64,000 nt of DNA. Origin: Desulfovibrio piger (GTDB taxonomy: Bacteria > Desulfobacterota > Desulfovibrionia > Desulfovibrionales > Desulfovibrionaceae). The notes below the pieces were generated by a model. It saw only the letters and a list, made by a program, of their open reading frames with translations, did no database searches and was not told the DNA's origin. Both the position numbers and the translations under genes were made by a program. Of the stretch, positions 21,638 through 40,636 are shown one piece after another (positions within the stretch are counted from its first letter, which is position 1; each line of letters starts with the position of its first letter). The stretch lies in contig NZ_JABAFY010000011.1 in NCBI RefSeq assembly GCF_012843875.1, positions 1 through 64,000 on the forward strand. Direction: 5' to 3'.

Positions 21638-23116
21638 TCAGCGCTGGATGCGCCGCCGTACGGCTTCGGCCTCCAGACCATGCAGATGGTGCACGCGTAT
21701 CAGGTAACACAGGGCCCCGAAGCCCAGGGCCACGATATAGGAGATCCAGAAGCCCGCAGGCCCCATGGCCGGGACGATCCAGTCCGTACGGGCCAGCGTG
21801 AAGCCCAGGGGCAGGCCGATGATCCAGTAGGAGGTGAAGCAGACCAGCGAGATGATGCGGGTATCGTTGTAGGCACGCAGGATGCCGATACTGATGGTCT
21901 GCAGGGCGTCCACCAGCTGGTAGCAGGAACCGAGCAGCAGCAGGCTCATGGCCAGGGCCGTCACGGCGGGATCGTCGTTATAGATGTGCACGATCTGCTC
22001 GCGGAACAGGGCCGTGCAGGCCGCGATGATCAGCGAGGAGACCGCGCCCATGCACAGGGCCGTGCGGGCCGAAAGACGGGCCCGGCCCAGACGCCCGGCC
22101 CCCACGCTCTGCCCCACCCGGATGGCCGCCGTGATGTTCAGCGACAGGGGCAGCATGAAGACCATCCCGGCAAAGTTCATGGCGATCTGGTGCCCGGCCA
22201 CGATGACCTTGCCCAGCGGTGCCAGCAGCAGTGCGGAAAGTGCGAACAGCGAGACCTCGAAGAACACGGCCAGCGCACCGGGCAGGCCGATGCGCAGGAT
22301 GCGCCAGATCAGGGGAAAGTCGAAACGGCACGGCACCGGCTCGGGCGTATAGGGAGCGGCCAGGGGACTGGCGTCATCACGGGCGCGGGCCTCGCAGCCG
22401 CAGGCAGGGGCCGTGCGCGGCAGCAGCAGGGGCAGGAACAGGGGATGCAGATCCCGGTACTGGGCATCCCGGCGCACGTAGTAGATCATGCAGGCGGCCA
22501 TGAACCAGTAACACAGGGCGGTGGCCACGCCGCAGCCCACGGCCCCCAGCTGGGGCAGGCCCAGCTTGCCGTAGATGAGCACATAGTTGCAGGGCACGTT
22601 GAGCGCCAGCCCCAGGATGCCGATGATCATGGCCGGGCGCGTGCGGGCATAGCCTTCCAGAAAGCTGCGCACATTGACGAACAGCATGAAGCCCGGCAGG
22701 CCCCAGAGCATGGCGCGCAAGTAGCCGCCGCCCAGGCGGGAAAGTTCCTCATCCAGCCCGAAGGACTGCAAATGCCAGGAGATGACGTAAAAGGCGGTCA
22801 TCAGGATGGCGCTGATGACCAGCGTGAGCCAGATGCCCTGCCGCAGCAGGTGCGGGGTGCGCGAACGCTGCCCGCCGCCCACCAGATGGGCGCTCATGGC
22901 CGGCAGGGAAAGCAGGCAGCCGATGCCCAGCAGGGAAAGAGGGTTCCAGATGGAACCGGCCACCGCCACGGCAGCCATGTCCGCCGTGCTGGCCTGACCG
23001 GTCATGGCCGTGTCTACGAAGTTCATGCCCATCTGTGACATCTGGGCCACAAATACAGGGAGGCCCAGAGCAACAAAGCGCCGGGCCTCGGACAAAGAAA
23101 AGAACTGGTTCTGCAT
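21638..23116 (-). CDS. MATE family efflux transporter (copy 1)
   Basis: This 492-residue Na+- or H+-coupled multidrug/toxin exporter has 12 membrane helices and the MATE signature regions (MNFVDTAMTGQAST after helix 1, NVPCNYVLIYGKLG in the first half, GHQIAMNFAGM in the second). A hydrophilic loop around residues 235-265, rich in Ala/Pro/Arg, is longer than in copy 2. The ATG at 23116 has GGGAG upstream. The second MATE gene lies upstream on the same strand; parts of the two are nearly identical at DNA level, so this is a tandem duplication. The substrate cannot be inferred. Confidence 0.93.
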   Translation of the reverse strand: MQNQFFSLSEARRFVALGLPVFVAQMSQMGMNFVDTAMTGQASTADMAAVAVAGSIWNPLSLLGIGCLLSLPAMSAHLVGGGQRSRTPHLLRQGIWLTLVISAILMTAFYVISWHLQSFGLDEELSRLGGGYLRAMLWGLPGFMLFVNVRSFLEGYARTRPAMIIGILGLALNVPCNYVLIYGKLGLPQLGAVGCGVATALCYWFMAACMIYYVRRDAQYRDLHPLFLPLLLPRTAPACGCEARARDDASPLAAPYTPEPVPCRFDFPLIWRILRIGLPGALAVFFEVSLFALSALLLAPLGKVIVAGHQIAMNFAGMVFMLPLSLNITAAIRVGQSVGAGRLGRARLSARTALCMGAVSSLIIAACTALFREQIVHIYNDDPAVTALAMSLLLLGSCYQLVDALQTISIGILRAYNDTRIISLVCFTSYWIIGLPLGFTLARTDWIVPAMGPAGFWISYIVALGFGALCYLIRVHHLHGLEAEAVRRRIQR

Positions 23117-23472
23117 GGTCTCCCATCCGCAGCCGGAAATATCCGGTTACAAGACAAGCCCTTATGCCGGGCCGGAGGCAGGCGGGGCATCCTGCCGGCA
23201 CAGCCGTGGCAGGGTACGGTCCGCGCCCCTCCTATACCTGCTCCCCCCTTGAATGACAAGCCCGCGCCATACCGGGAAATACCTTCCCGAAAAGCCGCCC
23301 GCTTTTTCTTTGCCGGCACGGCCCGCAATGCCCCTGTCCTGCCGTGGCGGCACATGTTCCGTCATGGCAGGCACGTCCGTGAAGATGGGCCTTCAGCCAC
23401 GCAAAAAAGGAGAGGCCTTGCCATGCCTCCCCTTCCCCGCGTGCGTATCCGGCTAAAATCCATCGCTCCCGC
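23117..23472. other. Intergenic region between the two MATE genes
   Basis: About 355 bases containing the terminator of MATE copy 2 (23403-23431) and presumably the promoter of copy 1. No gene is supported on either strand. Confidence 0.5.
23403..23431 (-). terminator. Terminator of the second MATE gene
   Basis: On the minus strand GGGGAGGC and GCCTCTCC form an 8-bp stem (one G-T pair) with an 8-base loop and run straight into six T. It lies 42 bases after the MATE copy 2 stop. Confidence 0.85.
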
Positions 23473-24897
23473 TCAGCGGCGGATGCGCTGGCGCACGGCC
23501 TCCGCATCCAGCCGGTGCAAGCGGCCCATGCGCAAACGGTACAGGCTGAAGCTCACCCACAGGGCCAGGCCGTAACCTATCCAGAAGCCGGTGGCGCCCA
23601 TGGCGGGCACCAGCCAGTCCGTCCGGGCCAGGGGCCAGCCCGTGCCCAGCCCCACGATCCAGTAGGAGAACAGGCAGACGCCCAGGATGTAGCGGGTATC
23701 GTTGTAGGCGCGCAGCACACCGATGCTCACCGTCTGCAACGATTCCGGGATCTGGTTGACGGCGGCGAAGACCAGCAGGCCCACGGCCAGCCCCAGCACG
23801 GCGGGGTCCGAGTTGTAGATCTGGGCGATCTGCGGCCGCAGGCACAGGGTGGCCGTCATGGTCAGCAGGGCCAGGCCCAGCCCCAGGCACAGGGCCGTGC
23901 GGGCCGAAAGGCGGGCCCGTTCCAGACGCCCGGCCCCCAGGTTCTGCCCCACCCGGATGGCCACGGTGATGTTCAGCGACAGGGGCAGCATGTAGACGAT
24001 GCTGGAAAAGTTCATGGCGATCTGGTGCCCGGCCACCACCACCTTGCCCAGCGGTGCCAGCAGCAGGGCCGTGACCGCGAACAGCGATGCCTCGAAACAG
24101 GCAGCCAGCGCACCGGGCAGGCCGATGCGGAAGATGCGCCAGACCAGCGGCCAGTCCACCCGCCGGACCTCGCCGCCCTCCCCTGCCGTACGCGGCAGCA
24201 GCAGGGGCAGGAACAGCGGCCCCAGCTTGCGGCAGCGTGCCTCGCGCCGGGCATACAGGGCCAGGGTCAGGCCCATGAACCAGTAGCACAGGGCGGTGGC
24301 AACGCCGCAGCCCACAGCCCCCAGCTGGGGCAGGCCCAGCTTGCCGTAGATGAGCACATAGTTGCAGGGCACGTTGAGCGCCAGCCCCAGCAGGCCCACG
24401 AGCATGGCCGGACGCGTGCGGGCATAGCCTTCCAGAAAGCCGCGTACGTTCACGAACAGCATCATGCCCGGCAGGCCGAAGAGCATGGCCCGCAGATACC
24501 CGGCCGCCAGCGGCGCCAGCTCGGCATCCAGGCCGAACAGCTCCAGATGGAGGGAAAGGAAGGCGAACACGCCCATAAGCACCAGCGACAGCAGGCTCGA
24601 AAGCCAGAGGCCCTGCCGCAGCAGATGCGGGGTGCGCTGCTGTTCGCCGCCGCCCACCAGATGGGCCATCATGGCGGGTAGGGACAAAAGGCAGCCCATG
24701 CCCAGCAGGGAAACCGGCACCCAGATGGAGCCCGAGACGGCCACGGCGGCTATGTCCGCCGTACTGGCCTGGCCGGTCATGGCCGTGTCCACGAAATTCA
24801 TGCCCATCTGGGCGATCTGCGTCACCAGCACGGGCAGGCCCAGCGCCAGGAAGCGGCGGGCCTCATTGAGGGAAAAGAATCTGTTCTTGGTCATCAT
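23473..24897 (-). CDS. MATE family efflux transporter (copy 2)
   Basis: This 474-residue 12-helix MATE exporter has the same landmarks as copy 1 (MNFVDTAMTGQAST, NVPCNYVLIYGKLG, GHQIAMNFSSI). The central hydrophilic loop is short (PRTAGEGGEVRR). I chose the tandem ATGs at 24897/24894; the frame stays open far upstream but that extension is not membrane-protein-like and is interrupted by the mqnD terminator hairpin. No strong ribosome site is visible. Separate terminators for both copies suggest independent transcripts despite the tandem order. Confidence 0.92.
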   Translation of the reverse strand: MMTKNRFFSLNEARRFLALGLPVLVTQIAQMGMNFVDTAMTGQASTADIAAVAVSGSIWVPVSLLGMGCLLSLPAMMAHLVGGGEQQRTPHLLRQGLWLSSLLSLVLMGVFAFLSLHLELFGLDAELAPLAAGYLRAMLFGLPGMMLFVNVRGFLEGYARTRPAMLVGLLGLALNVPCNYVLIYGKLGLPQLGAVGCGVATALCYWFMGLTLALYARREARCRKLGPLFLPLLLPRTAGEGGEVRRVDWPLVWRIFRIGLPGALAACFEASLFAVTALLLAPLGKVVVAGHQIAMNFSSIVYMLPLSLNITVAIRVGQNLGAGRLERARLSARTALCLGLGLALLTMTATLCLRPQIAQIYNSDPAVLGLAVGLLVFAAVNQIPESLQTVSIGVLRAYNDTRYILGVCLFSYWIVGLGTGWPLARTDWLVPAMGATGFWIGYGLALWVSFSLYRLRMGRLHRLDAEAVRQRIRR

Positions 24898-24913
24898 GTT
24901 CTGTGTTGGAGGC

Positions 24914-24950
24914 AAAAACAGGGCCGTTCCCTGCGGAACGGCCCTGAAAA
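24914..24950 (-). terminator. Terminator of mqnD
   Basis: A perfect 12-bp stem (24919-24930 with 24935-24946) with a 4-base loop is flanked by A-runs on the left and right. Read on the minus strand it ends in TTTTT, serving mqnD, whose stop is 70 bases upstream. Confidence 0.88.
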
Positions 24951-25015
24951 GGCCCCGGCGGCATGACCGCACGAGGCCCCCGGATACGTACGAACAGGCC
25001 TGATGCGGCCCTGCT

Positions 25016-25846
25016 TTACAGGAAGAGCCCCGCCTCGGGCAGGCGCAGGCCCTGCATCTTCGCCGCGGTCTCCACCAGACGGGCGATGGCCTGACGGCCC
25101 GTTTCGCCCAGGTCACGGCTGTACTCGGTGACGAAGGTCTTGATGTGGGCCGAGGTCACGCTCTCGGCCAGCTCCTGCGCGTGTTCGCGGATGAATTCCG
25201 CCGAGGCGCGCGGGTTGGCATTGGCATAGTCCACGCTGGCCGTGATGGCCGCTTCGATGGCGCGGGCCAGCTCCACGGGCACGTCGCGGCGCACGGCGAT
25301 GGCGCCCAGCGGCAGGGGCGCATGATAGGTGGCTTCCCACCACTGCCCCAGGTCCAGCAGCTTCACCAGGCCGCGGTCGGCATAGGTGAAACGGCCTTCA
25401 TGGATGATGACGCCCATGTCCGCCTCGCCGGTGAGCACCGCATCCATGACATCGCTGAAGAGCATCTCTTCGCGCGGGCCCTGGAAGCCGCCGTGCAGGG
25501 TCAGCAGCAGGTTGGCCGTGGTCATGAGGCCCGGCACGGCCACGCGGGCCGTTTTCCATTTTTCTTCGGGCAGGTCCTCGCGGGCCACCACCAGCGGGCC
25601 GCAGCCCCAGCCCAGGGCGGCGCCCGAGGCCATGATGGCATAATCGTCCATGATGTAGGGCACCACGCCCAGCGAAAGTTTGGTCACCGGCAGCTTCTTC
25701 TGCCGGGCAAGGGCATTGAGCTCCTCCACGTCGGCCATGTGCGGCGTGAAGTGCGCCGGGGACGGCACCAGATGGTGCAGCAGGGCATGGAAGATATAGG
25801 TATCATTGGGACAGGGCGAAAGGCCCAGCGTCATGTTCTCCGCCAC
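25016..25846 (-). CDS. mqnD: 1,4-dihydroxy-6-naphthoate synthase MqnD
   Basis: MqnD converts cyclic de-hypoxanthine futalosine to 1,4-dihydroxy-6-naphthoate in the futalosine route to menaquinone. The 276-residue protein has the periplasmic-binding-protein-like fold of the family, starting with MTLGLSPCPNDTYIFHAL and including SLGVVPYIMDDYAIM and MGVIIHEGRFTY. I prefer the GTG at 25846 (GAGAGGTG upstream); the ATG four codons later at 25834 is an alternative. It is divergent from mqnE, with both promoters in about 110 bases. Confidence 0.95.
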   Translation of the reverse strand: MAENMTLGLSPCPNDTYIFHALLHHLVPSPAHFTPHMADVEELNALARQKKLPVTKLSLGVVPYIMDDYAIMASGAALGWGCGPLVVAREDLPEEKWKTARVAVPGLMTTANLLLTLHGGFQGPREEMLFSDVMDAVLTGEADMGVIIHEGRFTYADRGLVKLLDLGQWWEATYHAPLPLGAIAVRRDVPVELARAIEAAITASVDYANANPRASAEFIREHAQELAESVTSAHIKTFVTEYSRDLGETGRQAIARLVETAAKMQGLRLPEAGLFL

Positions 25847-28821: not shown

Positions 28822-30279
28822 TTAGATCTCGCTTTCCGGGATACCGCAGGCCCGGGCCACGCCCGCACCGTAGGCGGGGTCGGCCTTGGCGCAATGACGG
28901 ATATGGCGCAGCTTGATCTCGCGGGGCGCGTCGCCCAGGGCGCGGGCCGTATTGCCGAACAGCTCTTCCTGCTGTTCCGGCGTCATCACGCGGAACAGCT
29001 TGCCGGGCTGCTCGAAGTAGTCGGCATCATCGCAGGGATAGTCCCAGCGGTCCGCATCGCCGCTGATCTTCAGGGGCGGCTCGCTGAAGTCGGGCTGTTC
29101 CTGCCAGGCACCCGTGCTGTTGGGCTCATAGCTGGTATAACTGCCGTAGTTGCCGTCCACCCGCATGGCGCCGTCCCGGTGGAAGCTGTGGTAGGGACAG
29201 CGGGGACGGTTCACCGGGATCATGTTGTGGTTGACCCCCAGGCGGTAACGCTGGGCATCTCCATAGGAGAACAGACGGCCCTGCAGCATCTTGTCGGGCG
29301 AGACGCCGATGCCGGGCACCAGATTGGCGGGATTGAAAGCCGCCTGCTCCACCTCGGCAAAGTAGTTCTCGGGATTGCGGTTCAGTTCCAGCACGCCCAC
29401 TTCGATGAGGGGATAATCCTTGTGGTACCAGACCTTGGTCAGGTCAAAGGGATGATAGGGCAGCTTTTCGGCGTCCTCCTCGGGCATGATCTGGAAATAC
29501 AGGGTCCAGCGGGGGAAGTCGCCCTTTTCGATATGCTCGTACAGATCGCGCTGGTGGCTGTCCCGGTCACGGCCGATGAGTTCCTGCGCCTCGGCATCGG
29601 TGAGGTTCTTGATGCCCTGCTGGGTCTTGAAATGGAACTTGACCCAGAAGCGCTTGTTCTCCGCATTGATGAGGCTGTAGGTGTGGCTGCCGAAACCGTG
29701 CATGTGGCGGTACGACGCCGGGATGCCGCGATCGCTCATGACCACGGTGATCTGGTGCAGGGCTTCGGGCAGCAGGGTCCAGAAGTCCCAGTTGTCCGTG
29801 GCGCTGTGCATGTTGGTGCGCGGGTTGCGCTTGACCACATGGTTCAGGTCGGGGAACTTGAGCGGGTCACGCAGGAAAAAGACCGGCGTGTTGTTGCCCA
29901 CCATGTCCCAGTTGCCCTGGTCCGTGTAGAATTTGACGGCAAAGCCGCGGATGTCGCGTTCCGCGTCCGCTGCGCCGCGCTCGCCGGCCACAGTGGAGAA
30001 ACGGACGAAGACTTCGGTCTGCTTGCCGACCTCGGCAAAGAGCGAGGCCTTGGTATACTGAGTGACGTCATGCGTCACCGTGAACGTCCCGTAAGCACCG
30101 GAGCCCTTGGCGTGCATGCGCCGCTCCGGGATGACCTCACGGTCGAAATGGGCCAGTTTTTCCTGGAACCAGACATCCTGCATCAGCATGGGGCCGCGCG
30201 GACCGGCAGTCAGGGCATGATTGTTATTGGCTACCGGCGCACCGGCACTGGTGGTCAGGCGGTCATTTTTATCAGTCAT
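28822..30279 (-). CDS. katA: Monofunctional haem catalase (small-subunit type)
   Basis: This enzyme dismutates hydrogen peroxide. The 485-residue protein has the length of small-subunit catalases, with distal His56 (RRMHAKGSG), Asn129 (VGNNTPVFF) and proximal haem ligand Tyr338 in [14 protein letters not shown]. There is no signal peptide, so it is cytoplasmic. The ATG at 30279 has AAGGAG upstream; the frame is open further up without a site. A HbpS-like haem-binding protein gene lies upstream on the same strand, 100 bases from the catalase promoter region. A possible Fur/PerR-like operator is at 30377. The gene symbol is by family; the lineage could equally call it kat. Confidence 0.96.
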
Positions 30280-30376
30280 ATGCTTTCTCCTTGGTTTGCG
30301 CACCTGGTTGGTGCAGTGACAGCCTCCCCCCAGGAGGTATCGCAAGGAAAGAAATGCCATGACCGGCAACTTTTGT

Positions 30377-39577: not shown

Positions 39578-40636
39578 CTAGCGCAGCAGCAGCCGCTTGC
39601 CGTCGGGACGCGCCCCCAGCACTTCACCGATCTCCACGGCCATCTCGCCCCTGGCCTCCAGCCAGTCACGCACCGTGGCCAACTCTTCACCCGGCACGGC
39701 CAGCACGATACCGCCCGAGGTCTGGGCATCGAATACGATGCTTTCCACTGCCTCATCCACCGAAGGAGCCACGTCCACGGCAGGAGCGCAGTGGGTGCGG
39801 TTGAGATGGCTGCCCGCCGGGATGAGGCCCATGCGGGCATACTCCAGAGCGTGGGGCAGCAGCGGCAGGGCTTCCGTCTGCAATGATACGCAGACGCCCG
39901 AGGCCTGCGCCATCTCCAGCAGATGCCCGCCCAGCCCAAAACCGGTGATGTCCGTGGCGGCTGGGATGCGGAAGTGGGCGATGGCCTCCCCGGGGATACG
40001 GTTGAGACGTCCGCACCAGCGCTGCAGCAGCGCTTCGCTTTCCTCATGATCGTCCCAGCGTGCCTTGACGCCTGTAGCCAGGATGCCCGTGCCCAGCGGC
40101 TTGGTCAGCAGCAGACGCAGGCCCGGCCGCAGCTTGTCATTGGCGGCCACATGATCGGGATCGATGATGCCGGTCACGGCCATGCCGTACTTGAGTTCGT
40201 CATCCTGCACCGTATGCCCGCCGGCCAGCACGGCCCCGGCTTCTTCCAGGGCATCCATGCCGCCGCGCAGGATATTGGCCAGGATGTTCTCCGGGTCGTT
40301 CTCGGTCAGGCAGGTGGGGAAAAAAGCCACGTTCATGGCACACCAGGGCTGCCCGCCCAGTGCGTAGACATCCGACAGGGCATTGCAGGCCGCGATGCGG
40401 CCGAACCAGAAGGCATCGTTGACGATGGGCGCCAGGATGTCCACGGTCTGCACGATGGCCTTGCCCGCCGGCATGCGCACGACCACGGCATCCTCGTTGC
40501 GGGCACGCCCGGCGATGACGCGCTGCTCCAGATCCGACGATCCACGGGGCACGAGGCCCCGCAAAAGCTGCTCCAGGGCCCCTGGAGCCATTTTTGCCGC
40601 TCAGCCGGCGGCCCGGGCCTTTTCCAGCAACTTCAT
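39578..40636 (-). CDS. selD: Selenide, water dikinase SelD, a selenocysteine protein
   Basis: SelD makes selenophosphate from selenide and ATP for selenocysteine and selenouridine. The reading frame starts at the ATG at 40636 (GAGG upstream) and reads MKLLEKARAAG, then an in-frame TGA at 40601-40603, then AAKMAPGALEQLL. The TGA sits exactly where the catalytic Cys/Sec of SelD lies, three residues before the essential Lys (U12/K15, as C17/K20 in E. coli). Full length is 352 residues with U12. The N-terminal and C-terminal AIRS domains are normal (GRARNEDAVV, AGGHTVQDDE, TDITGFGLGGH). A start at the later ATG would lose the catalytic residue. A hairpin of SECIS type follows the TGA. Confidence 0.95.
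40561..40597 (-). promoter_or_regulatory. Bacterial SECIS element in selD
   Basis: On the minus strand, directly after the TGA, outer arms GCAAAA/TTTTGC enclose a perfect 8-bp inner stem GCTCCAGG/CCTGGAGC (40570-40588) with loop GGC. The apical loop is about 20 bases from the TGA and begins with G, which fits the bacterial SECIS rules for SelB binding. Confidence 0.8.

Follow-up and report, generated by a model that had tools for sequence, protein, structure and literature searches.

In a 2006 survey, selenophosphate synthetase (SelD) and FdhA came out as the selenoproteins with the widest distribution in bacteria (PMC1794560), and Table 3 of that survey lists selenocysteine (Sec)-containing SelD for Desulfovibrio vulgaris and D. 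desulfuricans (PMC1794560). The bacterial SECIS element has been described as a stem-loop that directly follows the UGA within the coding sequence and carries a guanosine in its small apical loop (PMC1088965). The SelD of E. coli (structure 3u0o) belongs to the same family and has the active-site Lys, but it has Cys at the site, and therefore no recoding is needed there. The SelD of Aquifex (structure 2yye), from a distant lineage, has a similar active-site motif, RSSG-C-AAK.

The gene described here lies in a stretch of 64,000 nucleotides of Desulfovibrio piger DNA, the whole of which is called the window, taken from an assembly of 2.86 Mb in 133 contigs. The D. vulgaris and D. desulfuricans proteins are the same enzyme in the same group of sulfate reducers and are likewise selenoproteins, differing from the present one in species and not in kind. 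Closer still is the selD gene of D. piger ATCC 29098 (L048, NZ_DS996359.1), the product of which is 96% identical over 360 residues, with a few residues different; its TGA and hairpin sequence are the same as in the window. The features of the gene are as follows.

39578..40636, minus strand: the gene selD for selenide water dikinase (selenophosphate synthetase); the product has 352 aa, and Sec is its residue 12 when numbering starts with the ATG at 40636.
40634..40636, minus strand: proposed selD start codon ATG, with GAGG upstream; the ATG is kept in most members of the genus.
40601..40603, minus strand: in-frame TGA, read as selenocysteine on the basis of the TGA in related genomes and the Sec machinery.
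40589..40591, minus strand: internal ATG, coding for the Met that follows the conserved Lys; an ordinary gene caller would choose it, but translation is very unlikely to begin here.
39580-39578, minus strand: the real selD stop codon.

Two other observations were made in the window: a pair of adjacent MATE-family transporter genes (21638-25116, minus strand), and a catalase gene in this sulfate reducer (28822-30369, minus strand).

The preliminary description of this locus had proposed that SelD is itself a selenoprotein, with an in-frame TGA at the catalytic Cys/Sec position and the essential Lys three residues later; it named no strand, and the feature is on the minus strand. The protein read through the TGA begins MKLLEKARAAG-U-AAKMAPGALEQLLRGL, contains the domains AIRS and AIRS_C, and scored 315.8 bits against the SelD profile TIGR00476, well over the curated cut-off of 125. 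In phmmer alignments to solved SelD structures (E-values of 5e-57 for 3u0o and 5e-44 for 2yye), the U fell on the active-site Cys of both the E. coli and the Aquifex enzymes. Within the motif G-U-A-A-K, the U and the Lys were aligned to Cys17 and Lys20 of E. coli SelD, such that U-A-A-K corresponds to C-x-x-K of 3u0o, and both proposals about the active site were thereby borne out. Among 61 related genomes, a selD with a single TGA was found in 44, a Cys codon in 3 (G009, G036, and G018), a partial gene in 1, and no selD match of this kind in 13. The residue types read at the site in these relatives were TGA or Cys and no other, and Cys is also present in many Firmicutes homologues. Taking these data together with the Sec machinery and the conserved hairpin described below, we estimate a probability of about 97% that the window selD encodes a selenoprotein that is translated from the ATG at 40636, with the UGA at 40603-40601 decoded as Sec by means of SelB and the hairpin.

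The best-surviving alternative is that there is no recoding, and that SelD starts at the ATG at 40591, past the TGA, with the open stretch upstream being a leader. As had been anticipated for ordinary gene calling, the mechanical ORF list gave exactly 39578..40591, which is the sole ORF of the selD frame under translation table 11, and a truncated protein starting at 40591 still matches SelD at 296 bits. However, neither the catalytic residue nor the conserved Lys would be part of this product, and the Met at 40591 is replaced in relatives mostly by Leu, Val, or Ile. In the Cys-containing orthologue L033, from the same genus, the open frame extends from the corresponding ATG across the site. 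Furthermore, when members of the genus were compared with the window, the 10 codons that precede the TGA showed 43/10/88 differences at codon positions 1/2/3, whereas the 24 nt upstream of the ATG showed 116/118/99 over the three positions. The 10 codons preceding the TGA therefore evolve like coding sequence, which argues strongly against a start at 40591, and the 24 nt upstream of the ATG have a non-coding pattern. Because of the coding-like upstream codons and the lack of conservation of the Met, we regard a SelD starting at 40591, which the preliminary description held to be incompatible with its reading, as very unlikely.

A second alternative is that the UGA is read as Trp, Cys, or a near-cognate amino acid without Sec machinery. 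Readthrough of UGA is a generally known phenomenon, but the full machinery for Sec is present in this genome. A search of the genome yielded SelA at 585.8 bits, SelB above its cut-off, and a tRNA-Sec gene that scored 85.2 bits against a cut-off of 47 and has UCA as its anticodon, and so selA, selB, and selC, the absence of which had been named as grounds for refuting the proposal, were all found. Three other genes of the same genome have a TGA at a known Sec site, namely two formate dehydrogenase alpha subunit genes and a NiFeSe hydrogenase gene with the motif DPULGCAVH. In addition, where selB is absent, selD is almost always missing as well or of the Cys form: selB was present in 42 of the 44 genomes with a TGA-containing selD versus 4 of the 17 others (Fisher p = 3e-8, an optimistic value that overstates independence because the genomes are related). 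Decoding of the UGA without Sec machinery is very improbable, slightly more so than a start at 40591.

Several genomes depart from this association. G017 has a TGA-containing selD, selA, and tRNA-Sec, yet selB was not found in its assembly (99% complete, 40 contigs), owing either to an assembly gap or to a recent loss. The other genome with a TGA-containing selD and no selB match, G020, is represented by an assembly that is only 79% complete. G025 and G052, the assemblies of which are rated 97-100% complete, have selA, selB, and tRNA-Sec and no selD over the cut-off. A tRNA 2-selenouridine synthase (SelU/MnmH) is encoded in the genome of the window (G000:C23:24197-25096; 343.7 bits, cut-off 219.75); the distribution of this enzyme is patchy, with matches above the cut-off, among the 61 genomes, only in the window's genome, the D. 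piger-like G006, and G008.

The preliminary description had also proposed a two-part hairpin that starts 3 nt after the TGA and fits the rules for a bacterial SECIS. The elements of this structure are as follows.

40570..40588, minus strand: SECIS upper hairpin, with a 7 bp stem and a 5-nt apical loop (40581-40577), conserved at synonymous sites.
40580, minus strand: guanosine of the apical loop, at an invariant third codon position.
40561..40597, minus strand: span of the lower stem (40597-40592 with 40566-40561), which folds here and is not conserved.

The hairpin exists and folds, with a predicted energy of -19.6 kcal/mol, its first pair 3 nt past the TGA, and an apical loop that starts 20 nt past the UGA. 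In the fold, the upper stem runs from 40588 to a loop near 40580-40577. By itself, it is weak evidence, because 2.5% of the window's 1739 TGAs have an equally long stem in a SECIS-like placement behind them, the fold z-score was only about -2, and an Rfam search at gathering and permissive thresholds returned no SECIS match and no family. It is the comparative evidence that takes the observation far beyond chance. In an alignment of 34 distinct Desulfovibrionales sequences, 97.9% of the cells of the upper stem were paired, compared to at most 47% when the stem was slid by one to three columns. The lower stem, paired in only 62% of cells, is not to be counted as signal. Therefore, the upper part of the proposed two-part hairpin was upheld, with its small G-bearing apical loop just past the UGA, whereas the lower part was not kept in relatives.

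Compensatory double changes in the hairpin were almost absent (one pair), since the protein sequence dictates one arm of the stem, and the free sites opposite adopt the pairing base. Classical covariation is thus uninformative here, and conservation at synonymous sites was used instead. When the 139 selD columns with a conserved amino acid were scored, the five scored codons of the hairpin ranked 1, 2, 3, 4, and 7 in synonymous conservation, and the chance of all five falling within the top seven is 5e-8. At the stem sites that are free to vary synonymously, we found T in 34/34 sequences at alignment column 18, A or G in 33/34 at column 21, C or T in 34/34 at column 28, and G in 34/34 at both columns 30 and 33. 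The loop guanosine at 40580 (column 24) was G in 34/34 sequences, whether the codon specified Gly, Glu, or Ala. The upper hairpin is thus under strong selection at synonymous sites.

The notion that the TGA, one base away from TGC or TGT, is a frame-breaking mutation or a sequencing error in a former Cys codon is scarcely credible, given that 44 of the 61 relatives and also the record of D. piger ATCC 29098 have the same TGA and that a hairpin under selection follows it; the independent assemblies already refute this reading.

The three Cys-type genes among the relatives are L033 (G009:C43), L045 (G036:C10, with a sequence identical to that of Candidatus Desulfovibrio kirbyi, L050), and L125 (G018:C203). 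The hairpin is weakened in L033 and gone in L045 and L125. The genomes that contain L033 and L045 are small (1.4 and 1.6 Mb, respectively), and searches of G009 and G036 for selA, selB, a strong tRNA-Sec, and selenouridine synthase found none of these; the Cys-type selD of each is an orphan selD. G018 retains selA, selB, and tRNA-Sec alongside its Cys-type, hairpin-less L125, and represents a change from Sec to Cys with the trait kept.

The gene, its position, the Sec machinery, and the evolutionary constraint on the frame and the hairpin are established here. The steps by which the selenoprotein would be made and would function, namely SelB binding, Sec insertion, and the chemistry, are proposed by analogy with established work on bacterial Sec decoding. 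Translation would initiate at the ATG at 40636, and SelB bound to the hairpin at 40570-40588 would hand Sec-tRNA-Sec to the ribosome at the UGA at 40603-40601, after which translation would continue to 39578. The selenol at the nucleophile site, with the Lys three residues on, would take part in the synthesis of selenophosphate from selenide and ATP. This selenophosphate would supply SelA for the formation of Sec-tRNA, and hence the synthesis of SelD itself, as well as the tRNA selenouridine synthase. Because SelD is required to make the very Sec-tRNA with which it is itself translated, a self-reinforcing threshold is conceivable, in which the selD SECIS would be a sensing element and an on/off switch for the entire selenium system; this idea is speculative, and we consider it improbable.

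The present Sec-containing SelD is real but already known in kind, occurring in Desulfovibrio and many other anaerobes, and nothing about it is new in kind because the D. vulgaris and D. desulfuricans proteins have been listed since 2006 (PMC1794560). What follows for this gene is a corrected annotation, since a start at 40591 would remove 15 residues from the N-terminus, among them the catalytic Sec as well as the conserved Lys. Sec-SelD is an expected biological feature of the group, and the compared sequences show clearly a selD SECIS shared across the order, whose free synonymous sites pair with bases fixed by the protein and whose hairpin decays once Sec is replaced by Cys.
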